The position numbers and the translations under genes are program-made. Positions 35,293 through 43,997 of a stretch of 64,000 nucleotides of DNA are shown one piece after another. The notes beneath the pieces are model-generated. The model was not told where the DNA came from and made no database searches. It saw nothing but the letters and a program-made list of their open reading frames with translations. Source of the DNA: Nitrospirota bacterium. GTDB lineage: Bacteria > Nitrospirota > Nitrospiria > Nitrospirales > Nitrospiraceae. The stretch's first letter is position 1. Each line of letters opens with the position of its first letter. Location of the stretch: NCBI GenBank assembly GCA_002737345.1, contig NSIK01000018.1, forward strand, positions 66,417-130,416, given 5' to 3'.

Positions 35293-36804
35293 TTACTTGG
35301 GATTGACCGCTACAAACAGGTTATTCCCCTGCCGGCTCAATAGCAGGACGGCCAACTCATCTTTTTTCAGTTTGTGGGACGCCTTCTGGTAGTCCTCGAG
35401 CGTCTTCACGACTTCGTGGTTCACTTCCTGAATCACATCGCCGCGCGTCAAGCCCGCCGCTTCTGCCCCGCCGCCGCTCTCGACCGACGTCACGACCACC
35501 CCCGTCATCTTTGCCGGGATGTTGAATTGGCTCATCGTCGCCGCATCCAACCCCTGCGCTCTGATAGATGCCAGGACATTATCCGGCAGCTTCACCGTTT
35601 CGGGCTGCTCCTTCGGAGCCGACGGCTCCTTCTTCGCCAACAGTTCATCCGTCGGCCGCTCCGCTACCTTCACGGCGAGAGTCTGTTCCTTGCCGTCACG
35701 CAAGATCTTCACCTGCGCATCCTTGCCGACCATCGTGCGGGCAACCAAGTTGCGCAACTGGCTCACGTTCTGGACTTCTTTCGCGTTGAACGCGATCACC
35801 ACATCGCCGCGGCGGATACCTGCGGTGTGGGAGGGGCCATTCTCGTTCACATCGCTGATCAAGACCCCCTTACGCTGCTCCGGCAACTTAAAGGACTTGG
35901 CCAAGGCCGGCGTGATCTCTTGAATCGCGACGCCCATCCAGCCGCGCACGACCTTGCCGGTATTCTGCAAACTATCGACAATATCCACCGCAATGCTGCT
36001 GGGAATGGCAAATCCAATCCCTTCGGATCCGCCGGTCCGCGAAAAGATGGCCGTATTGATCCCCATGAGCTCACCGCTCATGGTGATCAAGGCCCCGCCG
36101 GAGTTGCCAGGATTGATGGCGGCGTCAGTCTGAATGAAATCTTCGTAATCCGCGATGCCGACGTTGCCACGGCCCAAGGCGCTGATGATGCCCAGGGTCA
36201 CGGTGGAGCTCAGTCCGAAGGGACTGCCGACCGCCAACGCCAGATCACCCACCTGTAATTTCTCATAATCGGCCCATTTTAAGGCCGGGAGGCCCTTCGC
36301 ATCGATTTTGATCACAGCCAAATCCGTCTTCGGATCGGTGCCCACCACTTTCGCGCTAAATTCGCGCCGATCGCTGAGCGTGACGGTAATCTGCGTGGCG
36401 CCCTCGACGACATGGTTATTCGTGACGATAAATCCGTTCGCATCGACAATGACGCCTGATCCGGCGCTTTGATCGGAGCGGCCATGGCCTCCGGGAGGCA
36501 TCCCTGGAGGAGTCGGGAGTTCGCCTCCTGGGGCTTCTTCACCTGGAGGTCCACCGAAAGGCCCTGGAGGCAACGGCGCTCTCCGGCCCTTGCCTCCACC
36601 CTCTCCACCCCCGGTCACCGCAATGTTGACGACTGCTGGTGTTACCTTCTTGACGATCTCTGCAAATCCTTGTGTCAGCCCGGCTGGAGTCCCGGCAAAC
36701 ACTGCGGGCTCCCCCAGCAAGACAGTAAACGCAACGGTGCTCATAGCCAGACCGATAGCTGCGATAAAACCGAGGGCATTCCCCCCCTTGCTCCGCGTAA
36801 CCAT
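35293..36804 (-). CDS. Periplasmic serine protease HtrA/DegP-like (Do family)
   Basis: 503 residues from the ATG at 36804, with AGGAACG upstream. The N-terminal hydrophobic segment is followed by a Gly/Pro-rich linker (about 65-112). The trypsin-like domain contains the catalytic triad: H131 (NNHVVEG), D161 (KTDLAVIK) and S235 (NPGNSGGALI). Two PDZ domains follow: one around GVLISDVNENGPSHTAGIRRGDVV, one near the C-terminus with GVVVTSVESGGGAEAAGLTRGDVIQEVN. Do-type proteases degrade or chaperone misfolded periplasmic proteins. Downstream is tatC. Confidence 0.93.
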   Translation of the reverse strand: MVTRSKGGNALGFIAAIGLAMSTVAFTVLLGEPAVFAGTPAGLTQGFAEIVKKVTPAVVNIAVTGGGEGGGKGRRAPLPPGPFGGPPGEEAPGGELPTPPGMPPGGHGRSDQSAGSGVIVDANGFIVTNNHVVEGATQITVTLSDRREFSAKVVGTDPKTDLAVIKIDAKGLPALKWADYEKLQVGDLALAVGSPFGLSSTVTLGIISALGRGNVGIADYEDFIQTDAAINPGNSGGALITMSGELMGINTAIFSRTGGSEGIGFAIPSSIAVDIVDSLQNTGKVVRGWMGVAIQEITPALAKSFKLPEQRKGVLISDVNENGPSHTAGIRRGDVVIAFNAKEVQNVSQLRNLVARTMVGKDAQVKILRDGKEQTLAVKVAERPTDELLAKKEPSAPKEQPETVKLPDNVLASIRAQGLDAATMSQFNIPAKMTGVVVTSVESGGGAEAAGLTRGDVIQEVNHEVVKTLEDYQKASHKLKKDELAVLLLSRQGNNLFVAVNPK

Positions 36805-36959
36805 AATAGCGTTCCTCCACAAGTTAACCAGCCGACACAATGCTCTTAATTGTACACTATCTCTTCCAAGGGCTTCAAAGACTAATAGCCCCCGGCCGGA
36901 CCCTGCCAGCCAGAGCCAGGAGGGACAGGAAATACGACTCCTGTTAGGGTCAAATCGCC

Positions 36960-37742
36960 TTACGAGCCGGCTTTTCTGGTCTTGGCCTCTGATTCCATTG
37001 CCCCGAGCCAGGAATACTGAAGCTTCAGCAGCAGCCGCTTCGCCGCTTGGTCAAACGACACAACCCGCAAGGTATTCGGCGCACCGGCATAGGTCGGGGG
37101 CCAGATCCTCCGCTCATCCTGAGGGCGGAGATAGACCACCGGATACCATTGATCGATCCCTGGCGCGCTCGGATAATCCAAGGTAGCCCAGCCCCGTCCT
37201 TCAGCCTGCATCACGATCTGTTGATGCTTCACGTCCAATAGGGCAAATTCCAGGAGCGACCAGTTGTCCCGGCGGAATCCAGGTTCCGCATGGGTGGTCC
37301 AGCCCAAAAAGAGCGTCACGGGATATTCCTGCTCTGTGCTAGAGGCGATCAGGAGGACCAGATAATCCAGCCCCCGCTGCCTGCCCAGCTCTGCGAACTG
37401 CGCCCAATCTCCCTGCGACTTCGGCCTGATCTGGGCCGATGGAATCTGTTCTTTTATCGTCACGGGAATCGCCCGGCCAATATCCAACTGGAGGCTCTCA
37501 ACAAGGCGGACAAGGGCCTCTTCTGGCAAATTCTGCACAGCCCCTGGCGCAGCTGTATCCGACAAGACAACCAGCCCTGCCTGGAGTGGGCGCTGATCGC
37601 TCCTCCCGAGCGCCTCATCTCCAGCCCTGCGTTCAGAGGAAAGATAATCACCGATTCTGGCAGGAGGAATGGCAGAGGCGCAGGACACGATGAACAGCAG
37701 ACTGAGGATAAGACTGACTGGTTTCAGCACAGAACACATCAT
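36960..37742 (-). CDS. Lipoprotein of unknown function
   Basis: 260 residues. The lipobox LFIVSC places the lipid-modified cysteine at C21. GGGAGGTGG lies directly before the ATG pair. The mature part alternates strands and helices with a central GRQRGLDYLVLLIASS and no recognised domain. Its start is 76 bases from the divergent glycosyltransferase ATG at 37819. Unknown family. Confidence 0.72.
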   Translation of the reverse strand: MMCSVLKPVSLILSLLFIVSCASAIPPARIGDYLSSERRAGDEALGRSDQRPLQAGLVVLSDTAAPGAVQNLPEEALVRLVESLQLDIGRAIPVTIKEQIPSAQIRPKSQGDWAQFAELGRQRGLDYLVLLIASSTEQEYPVTLFLGWTTHAEPGFRRDNWSLLEFALLDVKHQQIVMQAEGRGWATLDYPSAPGIDQWYPVVYLRPQDERRIWPPTYAGAPNTLRVVSFDQAAKRLLLKLQYSWLGAMESEAKTRKAGS

Positions 37743-38694: not shown

Positions 38695-40212
38695 TCACTC
38701 CGACTGCTTCACATAAATCGAAACTTTCCGGTCTTCGTATGCACGTTGCCAGGTCTGTTCATGTGCCAGAGCCTCATCCAGCAGGCTCTTCTTCTTCACG
38801 ATCGCCCAATCGACTGAATAAACGCTCAAGACCGAGAGGCTCGGGGGATCTGTCAGACTCAAGGCAACATAGTCTTGGAAAATTCTGCGATCCCCGCTTC
38901 GCCAGGCCGGCATCCGCCCATCGATGAAGATCTTCTCCTCCGGCAGCCACCAGAGCAGAAATCCTCCGTACGTATAGTCGTTATAGAGGCGGGTCCCCAG
39001 TAGCTTCCGATGCGATCGGACCCACTGGACCGCCTCAATAGGATAGGCTGTGCCCTCGAAATACTCGGCAGGCTGTAAGCCCGATTGCACGACCCGCTGA
39101 AGATGGCCCGGCCCCAGCCAGCCAAGAAAAAGTCCTCCTGAGAGCGTCCCCGCCAGCAACCATCGCCTGGCATGAACAGCATCCAGCTTAAGCCAGCTTG
39201 TCACGTGACCCAATCCTCTCGCCAGCAACTCGGTACAGAGAGGAAGCGTGACCAGAAGAAAGAACGGAATGTTTCTCATATGGCGAAGTGACAGAATCAA
39301 AAACACGCTCCACAAAACCCAACGCACCGGCTCAATGCGCCGGTACCAGGCCACCATCGCCAGCCCCAGCCCTGCCAAATAGATCCCATAGCGCTGGCCA
39401 GCCAGCGAGTTCAATGACAGAGGCTGCCATTCCTGCAAACTCTCGAGCATGAATCGATTCGATAGAGAATCGATGATCTCTCCATGCAATCGCCAGCCAT
39501 AGGGATTCACCAACGTGACCAACGATGCGATTCCCACTGCCACGATCAGCCTCCAGATCGCAGGCCAGGAAGGAATCGCTTCATCGAGACGGGCGGCAAG
39601 CGCAGGCGCCTGAACGACCACCGCTTTAACCATCCCGGAACTGGCTGCCACGAGCCCCAACAGAAACAGTCCGGCCGTAAACCCTCCATGTAAATTGGCC
39701 CAGAGCAAAAACAACGGAGGAATCAGCCAGCGTACGCGGCTTTGCTCATTCTTATTTCGTTCCAGCATCACCAGCAAAACCGCAAGGCCCAGCAACGTAA
39801 CCATCTGGGTCCTCGCCCCCAGAAACGGCAGGGCCACCCAGAGGGACAAGGCGCAGGCGAGGAGACGACAGGCTCTGTTGCAGGGAACCGAGAGGCTCGC
39901 GACCAGCCAGGCTCCTGCCGTCACCGCAGTAAAAAAGAGGATAACCCCCAAGGCGCCGAACCATGAATAGCACGTTCCGAGAATCAGGTCGGTCAACCAG
40001 GCATGTTCAACCCAGGGCCAATCAGACATGGTGTGGGAATAGGGATCCAAGGCAGGCAAGCGCCAGCCCTGCCGCAGAAGATCAAGCCCGGTCCGCAGAT
40101 GCCAACCGAAGTCCGGCTCTGTCAGAGGCTGGAGTGTAAAATTCAGAATGAGCAACAGGAGCACCGCATCGAGGGCAGAAAATACATTGTCTCTATTTAC
40201 CTCGCGTGTCAC
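38695..40212 (-). CDS. GT-C-like polytopic membrane protein
   Basis: 505 residues from the GTG at 40212. About 11 membrane spans are present. A first extracytoplasmic loop has EPDFGWHLRTG, an acid-and-histidine pattern seen in GT-C-type glycosyltransferases and related proteins, then DPYSHTMSDWPW. A soluble C-terminal domain of about 130 residues follows. The GTGA overlap with the upstream carbamoyltransferase stop indicates translational coupling. Probably transfers or builds a sugar from a lipid carrier; the exact family is not certain. Confidence 0.72.
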   Translation of the reverse strand: MTREVNRDNVFSALDAVLLLLILNFTLQPLTEPDFGWHLRTGLDLLRQGWRLPALDPYSHTMSDWPWVEHAWLTDLILGTCYSWFGALGVILFFTAVTAGAWLVASLSVPCNRACRLLACALSLWVALPFLGARTQMVTLLGLAVLLVMLERNKNEQSRVRWLIPPLFLLWANLHGGFTAGLFLLGLVAASSGMVKAVVVQAPALAARLDEAIPSWPAIWRLIVAVGIASLVTLVNPYGWRLHGEIIDSLSNRFMLESLQEWQPLSLNSLAGQRYGIYLAGLGLAMVAWYRRIEPVRWVLWSVFLILSLRHMRNIPFFLLVTLPLCTELLARGLGHVTSWLKLDAVHARRWLLAGTLSGGLFLGWLGPGHLQRVVQSGLQPAEYFEGTAYPIEAVQWVRSHRKLLGTRLYNDYTYGGFLLWWLPEEKIFIDGRMPAWRSGDRRIFQDYVALSLTDPPSLSVLSVYSVDWAIVKKKSLLDEALAHEQTWQRAYEDRKVSIYVKQSE

Positions 40213-41933
40213 GTGTTACGCCTTACGGCCGGTTGTCCAGCCAATAGATTGCCCAGCACCAGCCACTCGACTTCCGTACGAAGGAAACAGTCGATCGCCT
40301 CGTCCGGAGTACAGACGATGGGCTCATTCACATTGAATGAGGTATTCAGCAGGACCGGCACGCCGGTCTGGCGGCCGAAGGTTTCGAGGAGCAAACGGTA
40401 GCGAGGATTGGAGATCTTATCTACTGTTTGCACCCGCGCCGACCCATCCACATGGACCACGGCGGGAATCAGACCCTTGGCCGAAGGCAAAACCGGAACC
40501 GTCAGCAACATGAAGGGCGAGGGTGACGGAAGATCGAAATACTCCGACGCCCTCTCTTCTAGGACCGATGGGGCAAAGGGGCGAAAGGGCTCCCGGAGCT
40601 TCACCTTGGCATTGATCAGCTCCCTCATATCCTCGCGGCGCGGATCGGCTAATAGGCTGCGATTCCCCAGGCCGCGCGGCCCCCATTCCATCCGGCCTTG
40701 GAACCAACAGACCAGGCGGCCATTAGCCAGCTCACGAGCCACCTTCTCGCAGAGCTGATCATCCGGAAGACGTGAGGCAGACAGGCCGGCCCTCTCTAGC
40801 GCGGCCACACATTCTTGCTCGCTGAACTCCGGCCCCCACGAAGCGGACCGCAAAACCATGCGCTCGGTCAAGGCGCCCCGTCGGTGGGTCAGCCAGAGGG
40901 CCGCGCCCATTGCGGCCCCTGAGTCCCCCGCTGCCGAAGGGATATAGACCTCACGAAACCCGGCCTCCCGCCACAGACGGCTATTGGCTACGCAATTATA
41001 GGCTACGCCTCCGGCGAGACAGAGCCGATCGAGACCAGTCAACTTCTGCAAATGACGGGCGAGATGGAGCAGGGTCTCTTCCAGGACCAACTGTGCGCTG
41101 GCCGCCACATCCTTATGCCGCTGCGTCACTTCTTCATCCGGCTGCCGGTTGGGACCTAACAATCGAAGGATGGCGGGTGAAAAAATCTGATGCCGGGCCA
41201 AATGAAAATCGAAGATCTGCGTATTCAATTCGAACCCGCCCTCGGGAAGAAGGCGAAGGACCTGTTCACGGAGAGCCCCGGCAAATCGTGGGTTTCCATA
41301 GGCTGCCAAGCCCATCACAATATATTCATCGTGATCCGGCTTGAATCCCAGATAGGCAGTGACAGCCGCATAAAATTGCCCCGCCGAATGGGGAAGGGGA
41401 ATCCGTTTGAGCACCTGAATGTCGGGCCCCTCGGCCCTGGCCAACATCGTCGTATGGGCTTCCGACGCTCCGTCCACGATGAGCACAGCCGCCTGGTCGA
41501 ACGGCGAGACCAATACCGTGCTGGCCGCATGACAGAGATGATGGTCCAGAAAGACTGGCTTCGGGCAGGCGGTTCCATCGATCAGCCTAGTGAGATGGCT
41601 TTGGAGAAAGGCCAGTTCCTTCCATTCCTGAGCCATTCGCTCCGCGCTTCTCTTGCCCTTCACCCAACAGAGCTGCGGCGACCGCAGCATCGATCCGAGG
41701 GCCAGGGCTCCCCGCCTGCCGATCTGCCAATATTTCCAAGGCACCGCGACCGCATCGACGTCGCAGAGGCGCAACCCAGCCTCGCGGAGGCAATAGCGAA
41801 TCGCCTGCACCGGCAAGGCCGTGACATGCTTGACCCGGACAAACCGTTCTTCTTCCGCCGCCGCAATCACTCGGCCGTTCTCGACCAGCGCCGCCGCCGC
41901 ATCCCGCATGTTCGACAGACCCAGTATCAACAT
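40209..41933 (-). CDS. Carbamoyltransferase, NodU/CmcH family
   Basis: 574 residues from the ATG at 41933 (MLILGLSNMRDAAAAL). An N-terminal ASKHA-type domain starts with GLSNMRDAAAALVENG and continues with EEERFVRVKH and FLDHHLCHAAST, the metal-binding HHxxH of the family. GGVAYNCVANSRL and a C-terminal Sua5/YrdC-like region with QGRMEWGPRGLGNRSLLADPR and DGSARVQTV follow. Such enzymes make carbamoyl-adenylate and transfer the carbamoyl group to a hydroxyl of a sugar, macrolide or cephem. The substrate here is probably a glycan, since the gene is coupled with a GT-C-like protein. Confidence 0.92.
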   Translation of the reverse strand: MLILGLSNMRDAAAALVENGRVIAAAEEERFVRVKHVTALPVQAIRYCLREAGLRLCDVDAVAVPWKYWQIGRRGALALGSMLRSPQLCWVKGKRSAERMAQEWKELAFLQSHLTRLIDGTACPKPVFLDHHLCHAASTVLVSPFDQAAVLIVDGASEAHTTMLARAEGPDIQVLKRIPLPHSAGQFYAAVTAYLGFKPDHDEYIVMGLAAYGNPRFAGALREQVLRLLPEGGFELNTQIFDFHLARHQIFSPAILRLLGPNRQPDEEVTQRHKDVAASAQLVLEETLLHLARHLQKLTGLDRLCLAGGVAYNCVANSRLWREAGFREVYIPSAAGDSGAAMGAALWLTHRRGALTERMVLRSASWGPEFSEQECVAALERAGLSASRLPDDQLCEKVARELANGRLVCWFQGRMEWGPRGLGNRSLLADPRREDMRELINAKVKLREPFRPFAPSVLEERASEYFDLPSPSPFMLLTVPVLPSAKGLIPAVVHVDGSARVQTVDKISNPRYRLLLETFGRQTGVPVLLNTSFNVNEPIVCTPDEAIDCFLRTEVEWLVLGNLLAGQPAVRRNT

Positions 41934-42104
41934 CGGTCTCGGGCCCCTTCTCTCAGCATCGCCTCTGCCAGGAGCGCAGGATAACTGAGGGCTCGCAAGC
42001 TCGCAAGACGTGACTGCGCCCTGTTGCATTCATTCTGAGATTTCGGTACGGTGCGCCTGGAGTTTCAGCGACCCTACCCATCACGATAGACAGATTTTTA
42101 GCCT

Positions 42105-43997
42105 ATGGCCATCACACGAATTCCGGGACGCTCCCCTCAACAACGCACCCTGCGATGGGCCGCTCCCTTCTGCCTGCTCATCGCTGCAAGCGGGCTCTCG
42201 GGCTGCGAGAAGGTGTCGACAGCGCTCCACCGAACTCCGTTGCCGGATATGGGACCGCGGCTGGCCAACTCGGTCAAACTGACCTTCGACCCAGCCTTTA
42301 GCAAGCTCACCATGCCCTACGTCGATGGGTGCAATAGCCCACACGAGCTCAATGTGGGAGAAGACGCCGAATCCATCATGATTGATGCGGCCACCAAAAA
42401 CTTTACCGCCGTCACCGTCACCGGCGGCATTGCCGCCCCCATTAAGCCTGATACAGAGATCCTGATCACGCTCCAACGCTCGAGCCTGAAGCTCTGGACA
42501 GATCATGTCTATGACCGAGTGCCGGCGGACATCACCCTCGACACACTCGTCACGTTTAAAGACGCGACGGGAAAAGAACTGGGCCAGCAGACGATCGCCG
42601 TCACACACAACCAACGACTGATTCTGGAGCCAACCGGAAAACGTTGCGATTACGGCAATATCGGCGAGTTTGTGTATGACACAGGAATCACCCTCTCGAC
42701 GCATTTCATTCGCGCCGTCCGGACCCAGTTGGCCACGCCGGGGAGCCCGAAGCCGGCAACAGTGGCAGCTTCACCCATAAAACCCTCTTCACTGACAACG
42801 ACCCTGCAGGCCAAGGGCGCGCCATCAGCTCTCTCGTTCAAAGCCACCGTACTGGACGAAAACGGCAATTTGGTCTTCGAGGGAGGCGAACACATCAAGG
42901 TGCGTATCGACCTCGTGAATGGAGGAGAGCAGGAACTGCAGGGCGTCACAGCCAGCTTGACGGGAACCGCATCGCTACTAGCTCAATTCCCGACCGCTAC
43001 CTTGTCCGTCGGACGGCTCCAGCCAGGCCAATCCCGCTCGATCGAGTTTACGGCCACGTTACCTCAGTCCGTCCAACAGCAAAAGGCCGAACTCCAGGTC
43101 GCAGTCTCCTCGTCAGGAGCCGCTGTGCAGCCACAGCCGCAAACCCTGACCCTGTCGGTCCAACCGACCGGCATCAAGTCTGACGATGTGGATCAAATCC
43201 CTGCGATGGCAACAGGATTTCGGCAGCCCCACACCTATCTGATCTCCATTGGGATCAGCGCCTATCGGGACAAACGAATCTTTTCCCGTAAGTTCGCCTC
43301 GTCGGATGCCGAGATGGTCTCGCATTACTTTCAGTCCATCGGGGGGTTGCCAGCCTCCAATGTCAGGCTGCTACAAGACTGGAAAGCCTTACGCCCGGAT
43401 ATTGACGAAGCCCTGATGGATTGGCTGCCTTCCCATATGAACAAGGAATCGGTCGTCATTGTCTATTTCGCCGGTCTGGCCTTGGTGTCTTCGACAGGAG
43501 AAACGTTTCTCATCCCCTACGATGGAACGGTCGCAAGTACCTCACGGGCATACCTACTCGAGGATTTGGAGGCAGCGCTCTCTCGATTAAAGGCGAAACA
43601 GACCCTGTTTCTCTTCGATGGCATTGTGTCTCGTATGGGGCCTGATGGCAAAAACAAGGCGGCCCTCCCCCAGTGGAATCCTGCAGGAAGCTCAACCCTC
43701 CATGTCATCGGAGTCAACGGTATCGGACGGGGCCTGGAAGACGACCAACATCGACATGGGCTCTTCACCTACTATCTGCTGCGGGCGCTGCGCGGTGAAG
43801 CTGACACCAATCGGGACGGTGACGTGACAATCGGAGAAACGGTGGGCTATCTCAGCCAAAAAGTGCTCTGGGCCTCTAAGGCCCATATGAACCAGGAGCA
43901 GCGGCTCTTGATTGCGCCAGCTCTCCGCTCAACCGATCCTTCGGCTGCCTTGATATTGGCCAAACCGGCCGCCATCCGAGGTGCCGAAGCGCACTAA
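42105..43997 (+). CDS. Caspase-fold (C14) lipoprotein lacking both catalytic residues
   Basis: 630 residues. The lipobox LSGC places the lipidated cysteine at C34. The middle (about 75-350) is beta-rich with CARDB-like repeats (VRIDLVNGGEQELQGV...FTATLP). The C-terminal caspase-like domain begins HTYLISIGISAYRD (about 375). In caspases of this type the histidine follows in YFSGHG and the cysteine in DSCxSG. Here the matching positions read YFAGLALVSS and LFDGIVSRMG. Neither residue is present. LIPYDG and the FTYYLLRALRG ending are kept, so the fold is likely intact but the protein should be inactive as a protease. It could act as a binding or scaffold protein. Confidence 0.8.
   Translation: MAITRIPGRSPQQRTLRWAAPFCLLIAASGLSGCEKVSTALHRTPLPDMGPRLANSVKLTFDPAFSKLTMPYVDGCNSPHELNVGEDAESIMIDAATKNFTAVTVTGGIAAPIKPDTEILITLQRSSLKLWTDHVYDRVPADITLDTLVTFKDATGKELGQQTIAVTHNQRLILEPTGKRCDYGNIGEFVYDTGITLSTHFIRAVRTQLATPGSPKPATVAASPIKPSSLTTTLQAKGAPSALSFKATVLDENGNLVFEGGEHIKVRIDLVNGGEQELQGVTASLTGTASLLAQFPTATLSVGRLQPGQSRSIEFTATLPQSVQQQKAELQVAVSSSGAAVQPQPQTLTLSVQPTGIKSDDVDQIPAMATGFRQPHTYLISIGISAYRDKRIFSRKFASSDAEMVSHYFQSIGGLPASNVRLLQDWKALRPDIDEALMDWLPSHMNKESVVIVYFAGLALVSSTGETFLIPYDGTVASTSRAYLLEDLEAALSRLKAKQTLFLFDGIVSRMGPDGKNKAALPQWNPAGSSTLHVIGVNGIGRGLEDDQHRHGLFTYYLLRALRGEADTNRDGDVTIGETVGYLSQKVLWASKAHMNQEQRLLIAPALRSTDPSAALILAKPAAIRGAEAH

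Follow-up and report, generated by a model that had tools for sequence, protein, structure and literature searches.

Most known pseudo-caspases come from animals, cyanobacteria and alphaproteobacteria. Bacterial ones form an accepted class, the pseudo-orthocaspases, described in passages of PMC6426788 as p20-type domains in which one or both residues of the catalytic dyad are substituted; the class includes SyOC of Synechocystis, which according to passages of PMC7889975 has no p10 domain. The same parts of PMC6426788 assign Cys92, Asp95, Ser159 and Asp211 to the substrate pocket of TbMC2, a type I metacaspase, and report that both pocket Asp residues are conserved in pseudo-orthocaspases. Broken dyads are likewise already known in Nitrospirae, where a 2012 survey of prokaryotic metacaspases found the dyad kept in only 57% of caspase homologues (PMC3501461, in part). 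The passages of PMC3501461 do not describe the protein reported here, its architecture or its conservation, and the main text of PMC6426788 does not mention Nitrospira. Our searches of the open-access literature returned no paper on the Nitrospira protein, nor any account of an LptE-like and Ig-like combination in a conserved lipoprotein, of its absence of Cys or of its near-fixation.

The gene lies in a window of 64,000 nucleotides, the whole stretch of DNA analysed here, on contig C31 of a 1.67 Mb assembly (G000) that is 91.55% complete; its features and those of its neighbours are collected in Table 1. Among named records, Nitrospira lenta MAGs come closest to this assembly, at 92 and 83% identity, which suggests that the host is a Nitrospira or a near relative. 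The protein resembles the bacterial pseudo-orthocaspases (PMC6426788; SyOC, PMC7889975; both in part) in having a substituted dyad, in retaining both acidic residues and in being spread lineage-wide, and it differs from them in being a lipoprotein, in its LptE-like and Ig-like domains and in its EF-hand-like loop. Whereas the cyanobacterial and alphaproteobacterial proteins favour Tyr-Ser, Tyr-Asn or Phe-Ser at the dyad (PMC6426788, in part), the Cys position of the Nitrospiraceae protein is unconstrained. At its N-terminus an Arg-containing n-region is followed by a hydrophobic stretch and by a lipobox (LSGC) ending in Cys34, a residue found in 76 of 79 orthologue rows and gapped in the other 3. 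From this lipobox the protein is predicted to be exported and lipid-anchored, as the first-pass annotation had proposed. The residue following the lipobox Cys (n = 76) is E in 37 rows, A in 17, D in 10, V in 7, Q in 3 and T in 2, and because it varies it does not decide between the inner and the outer membrane.

Table 1. Features of the pseudo-caspase gene and of neighbouring genes, in window coordinates
Feature	Position	Strand	Basis
CDS of 630-aa lipoprotein (LptE/DUF330-like, Ig-like and caspase-like domains)	42105..43997	+	ORF with ATG start; orthologues
Signal peptide and lipobox, residues 1-34	42105..42206	+	sequence; lipidation of Cys34 predicted
N-terminal domain, LptE / DUF330 (PqiC)-like fold, about residues 51-213	42255..42743	+	structure model; fold matches
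Ig-like domain, CARDB / transglutaminase C-terminal type, residues 240-356	42822..43172	+	fold matches; CARDB below cut-off
Caspase-like domain, residues 370-610	43212..43934	+	C14 homology by sequence, profile and fold; no Cys in 79/79 rows
Asp401, aligned with Asp of metacaspase C-x-x-D (Asp95 of TbMC2)	43305..43307	+	profile alignment; roles from passages of PMC6426788
Leu458, catalytic His column	43476..43478	+	alignment with intact caspase homologues
Asp505, at position -2 from the lost Cys (Asp211 of TbMC2)	43617..43619	+	profile alignment; roles from passages of PMC6426788
Ile507, catalytic Cys column	43623..43625	+	alignment with intact caspase homologues
EF-hand-like loop, residues 567-578, D-x-N-x-D-G-x-x-T-x-x-E	43803..43838	+	PDB profile search; conservation
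NodU-like carbamoyltransferase, divergent neighbour (context only)	40209..42029	-	in 29/40 flanked loci
Lipoprotein g36960, three genes away here	36960..37742	-	divergent neighbour of the f2 homologue in 8/9 f2 loci
DegP/HtrA-type periplasmic serine protease (context)	35293..36840	-	TIGR02037, 464.7 bits against a cut-off of 416.2

The sequence reads YFAGLALVSS from residue 454 and LFDGIVSRMG from residue 503, and alignment with intact homologues places Leu and Ile in the catalytic columns, in agreement with an earlier claim that both catalytic residues are lost. We surveyed the same positions in 79 orthologue rows, made up of the window and 78 loci (L007 to L084), with those from outside the genus picked by eye to span genera; L001 and L004-L006 duplicate the window and L009-L011 and were left out, while L007 and L048, both among the rows, look near-identical. 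The His column holds Q in 33 rows, L in 31, H in 9, V in 3, and M, S and T in one each. The Cys column holds 12 residue types (I 22, T 13, M 12, A 7, S 7, K 5, V 3, G 3, N 3, L 2, R 1, P 1), none of them Cys, and no row has a Cys anywhere in residues 370-610. The alternative that orthologues are intact and that the window carries a local sequencing error is excluded for the 79 rows examined, because no orthologue row has Cys at the catalytic position.

Homology of the domain to Peptidase C14 is firm. An NCBIfam caspase domain model matches residues 382-587 of the window protein with an E-value of 1.6e-8 (34.3 bits, against a cut-off of 140 for that model). The Pfam C14 model does not report the window protein alone at E 1; it matches 16 of 21 orthologues at E 0.01 or better, and five orthologues (G019, G008, G009, G017 and G015) exceeded its curated cut-off in a genus-wide search. 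When five close orthologues were compared by hhalign with the caspase domains of 13 intact Nitrospirota homologues, the probability was 100 and the E-value 1.7e-44, and a wider orthologue profile (A2) gave 4.7e-52; the alignment sets YFAGL above YYAGH and FDGI above LDSC. As the caspase part scored poorly in a full-length structure model, in which the N-terminal and Ig-like domains scored best, we folded the domain alone. The resulting model, built from five sequences, is of low confidence (pLDDT 50.7, pTM 0.59), and all 50 structural matches listed for it are clan CD-type folds, among them caspases, the MALT1 paracaspase, a metacaspase, legumains and peptide ligases, and GPI transamidase. With this weak model the best match is MALT1 (Z 11.2, rmsd 4.4, 182 residues), which also combines Ig and caspase domains. 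In solved MALT1 constructs, judged by their entry titles, the Ig domain follows the caspase domain, whereas here it precedes it; MALT1 is, moreover, active and is not known to be a lipoprotein. The caspase fold first named from the sequence thus stands.

In searches of the PDB, the window protein alone gave no match at E 10, the intact relative L094 gave none, and the intact relative L097 gave mostly Sel1 repeats. A profile of the 13 intact domains reached metacaspases and MALT1, and profile A2 reached only EF-hand proteins, over residues 561-588 (best E 0.0034). This part of the protein, a conserved segment that follows the p20 part and comprises an HGLFTYYLL motif and the EF-hand-like loop, is weakly modelled. 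The window protein matches none of the PADLOC families, including the defence-associated caspase family PDLC02987, which the intact relative L094:4619-5998 matches at 5.5e-16. Because Leu458 and Ile507 stand at the dyad and Cys is found in none of the 79 rows, the protein is, as judged from its sequence, a C14 homologue and not an active C14 peptidase. We considered whether it could still be an enzyme that uses a nucleophile other than the Cys-His dyad, since His551, Thr555 and other residues are invariant. No Ser column exceeds 62 of 79 rows, the His column varies and Cys is absent from all of the domains; in intact relatives, too, the corresponding His and Thr hardly vary, and so look structural. 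We therefore give this reading only a slim chance.

The dead domain is under strong purifying selection. Its dN/dS is 0.05-0.17 across six orthologue pairs (that of a 27-residue linker is 0.23-0.81 in the five pairs where it was computable), and 21 of its columns are invariant in the 79 rows. Mean identity to the window protein over 73 rows is 0.66 for the caspase-like domain, 0.65 for the Ig-like domain and 0.52 for the N-terminal domain. That the catalytic residues are gone and that the Cys position varies freely might suggest a functionless relic on its way out. Such a relic is very unlikely, with a close to negligible chance, because of these dN/dS values; the invariant columns and the presence of the gene in most genomes of the family speak against it too. 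The domain has been kept under strong selection despite cutting residues that were probably lost long ago, which suggests that it now binds rather than cuts.

The residues that the domain has kept are consistent with such a role. In a profile alignment, the DA pair of intact Nitrospirota domains falls on C-x-x-D-A of Metacaspase-1 (4f6o) and their DSC falls on its DSC, and by this alignment Asp401 would correspond to Asp95 of TbMC2 and Asp505 to Asp211. The second correspondence presumes the position that we take Asp211 to have relative to the catalytic Cys of TbMC2. Asp401 is D in all 79 rows of the window gene (gene 1) and in all 10 rows of a paralogue (gene 2); Asp505 is D in all 10 gene-2 rows and in 76 gene-1 rows, the other 3 having E. 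For comparison, the most frequent residue of a column in the gene-1 domain has a mean frequency of 0.71. Retention of both may instead be structural, since both also sit in conserved structural motifs. In homologues from the second family of the order (f2), D401 is found in 0 of 8 and D505 in 7 of 8; the substituted dyad and acidic pair of a pseudo-orthocaspase thus occur together in gene 1, whereas f2 lacks the pair, and the predicted pocket holds for Nitrospiraceae and does not extend to f2 or across the order. Within the EF-hand-like loop, D567 and E578 are present in 79 of 79 rows, N569 in 77, and D571 is D in 59 and N in 20. Roughly half of the intact relatives have the loop as well, with D567 present in 13 of 25 rows.

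Our favoured explanation, held tentatively and with somewhat less than even confidence, is that the protein is a lipid-anchored pseudo-caspase of the envelope that acts as a non-cutting binding module. In this proposal, the LptE/DUF330-like and Ig-like domains would carry a caspase-fold domain that is unable to act as a cysteine protease. Its groove, with both acidic S1 residues, which in metacaspases hold basic side chains, would most likely bind a basic segment of a peptide or protein in the periplasm and leave it uncut, and the adjacent EF-hand-like loop, with Ca2+, could stabilise or gate the binding domain. Here we infer peptide binding, Ca2+ binding, the membrane and its face, and a partner. 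The original suggestion, that the protein may sense or scaffold something at the envelope, is plausible. What speaks for it here is indirect, namely the strong purifying selection, the kept acidic residues and EF-hand-like loop, and the occurrence of the gene in genomes in which no C14 protein outside three dead families was found.

The N-terminal domain, which the first-pass annotation overlooked, offers a different explanation. Its model matches the DUF330 structure 2iqi (Z 11.0, rmsd 3.2, 145 residues) and also LptE chains (e.g. 3bf2, TM-score 0.68 by target), with no Pfam sequence match to LptE (PF04390) or to ABC_trans_aux/DUF330 (PF03886) at E 1. Cys76 is found in 76 and Cys181 in 77 of the 79 rows, with gaps in the remainder, and the two probably form a disulfide. 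By hhalign, with a probability of 97, the domain is common to genes 1 and 2 and f2; comparisons with the N-domains of the intact relatives L098:13280, L094:499 and L098:15554 and with lipoprotein g36960 gave no link (hhalign probability 0.1-0.4). The protein is thus like the LptE and DUF330 (XCC0632, PqiC type) lipoproteins in its N-terminal fold and lipid anchor, and differs from them in being fused to Ig-like and caspase-like domains and in lacking a sequence-level Pfam match. We asked whether it could be the LptE of this genome and rejected the idea: the genome has a separate LptE (PF04390), as do 30 of 32 genus genomes. In the Ig-like region fall 49 of 50 fold matches listed, with Z about 10.5-11.7. 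Here the window protein misses the CARDB (PF07705) cut-off (15.7 against 22.7 bits, E 0.018), which model matches 10 of 21 orthologues at E 0.01 or better. Of the CARDB-like domains proposed earlier, an Ig/CARDB-like fold is therefore present, but as one domain rather than several and below the Pfam cut-off.

These features raise the possibility of a structural envelope factor, in which the LptE/PqiC-like N-domain does the work by docking on a complex of the outer membrane or of lipid transport, with the caspase fold serving only as a rigid spacer or an oligomerisation surface. The fold matches to DUF330 and LptE, the kept Cys pair and the occurrence of the N-domain in all three groups agree with this, as do the greater decay of the caspase part in f2 and an f2 protein (L111) that consists of the N-domain and Ig-like domain only. 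A spacer would not, however, need the caspase-like domain to be more conserved than the N-domain, as it is in Nitrospiraceae, and since a separate LptE is encoded, the protein does not fill the place of a missing one. On balance we regard a purely structural role as rather unlikely.

The gene is present in all 32 genus genomes (in pieces in G016 and G022) and in about 135 of the 147 Nitrospiraceae genomes searched, counting as orthologues matches with E below 1e-70. No clear orthologue was found in G035, G040, G042, G051, G052, G057, G089, G091, G120, G123, G135 and G139; G089 has a gene fragment at a contig end, and G091 is a single-contig genome. Because about 12 of the 147 genomes are without a clear orthologue, the gene is not essential to the family. 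Nine f2 genomes have a homologue, without the HGLFTYYLL segment; 8 of these retain the caspase-like domain, in which Q or H replaces the first dyad residue or keeps its place and P or Q stands at the second, and in the ninth the ORF (L111:3306-4427, minus strand) holds only the N-terminal and Ig-like parts. Gene 2 of the window genome (L002, G000:C32:65688-67469) encodes a second lipoprotein built of the same three domains, with an identity of about 30% and with Arg and Ser/Thr at the dyad in all 10 rows. Gene 3 (L003, G000:C35:4803-5402) joins caspase and TPR parts and adjoins an acetyl-CoA-synthetase-like frame (named by eye); all 29 orthologues read keep His and have Ala in place of Cys (NAA/NTA for DSC). 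They come from 30 loci (L120-L149), of which L145 had no readable ORF and was left out.

In a tree of 79 domain rows computed without the dyad columns, gene 1, gene 2 and f2 form one clade of 52 rows (SH-aLRT 99), whose nearest intact kin are Ig-caspases with an intact dyad (L098:15554-17905 and L099:1688-3514) from more distant families of the phylum. A tree of 56 rows left the root between the dead and intact groups open, with a bootstrap of 91 and an SH-aLRT of 79 for the intact group. Both trees have at least two changes from intact to lost, the second being that of the gene-3 TPR family. From these trees we assign, with moderate confidence, a single ancient loss to the base of Nitrospirales or close to it; intact relatives are found in other classes. 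Intact homologues, from other Nitrospirota and some Nitrospira genomes (L094, L098, L099), resemble the window protein in their signal peptide and lipobox-like Cys (by eye), and the two Ig-caspases share its combination of Ig and caspase domains; they differ in having YYAGHG and DSCFSG intact and other N-terminal domains (PEGA, ankyrin, TPR-PDZ).

The presence of intact relatives in several Nitrospira genomes makes it conceivable that the protein acts on an active caspase of its own cell as a regulator or decoy, in the way that FLIP(L) acts on caspase-8, a known type of role for pseudo-caspases (passages of PMC7586951). Against this, 14 of the 32 genus genomes, all with the gene, have no Pfam C14 match outside the three dead families (G000, G001, G002, G005, G006, G008, G010, G011, G014, G016, G018, G019, G029 and G031), in a search that is not fully sensitive, since the gene-3 protein of G000 escaped it but was detected by hmmscan. 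One of the 14, G029, is 99% complete. We consider a regulator of this kind improbable. In the window genome three C14-related proteins were found, the window gene product, its paralogue and the TPR protein; because all three lack the catalytic Cys, counts of C14 genes taken as cell-death proteases in Nitrospira would mislead. Near-fixed in a family of nitrite oxidisers and their kin, predicted to be envelope-anchored, free of Cys and with its acidic pocket kept, the protein offers a clean system for the study of caspase folds that do not cut.

Across the 40 loci L038-L077, which mostly include about 4 kb per side, the carbamoyltransferase is present at 29, DegP at 12 and a cytochrome c gene at 32, and no locus is without all three of carbamoyltransferase, DegP and g36960; TatC also lies near the gene in the window. 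These neighbours provide context for an envelope role and no more. An extended form of the binding proposal, which we regard as speculative and unlikely, is that the protein would be a Ca2+-gated, non-cutting receptor for basic segments, perhaps in periplasmic quality control beside DegP, since the origin of Nitrospiraceae and also in cells without an active caspase. Lipoprotein g36960, which has no Pfam or NCBIfam match, has further copies in L103, L104 and L110. In other Nitrospirota families, intact caspase genes occur in arrays of two to six (L098, of 19.5 kb, L099, L100, L101 and L102), and many of the array caspases have a lipobox, with varied N-terminal domains such as ankyrin and Ig.
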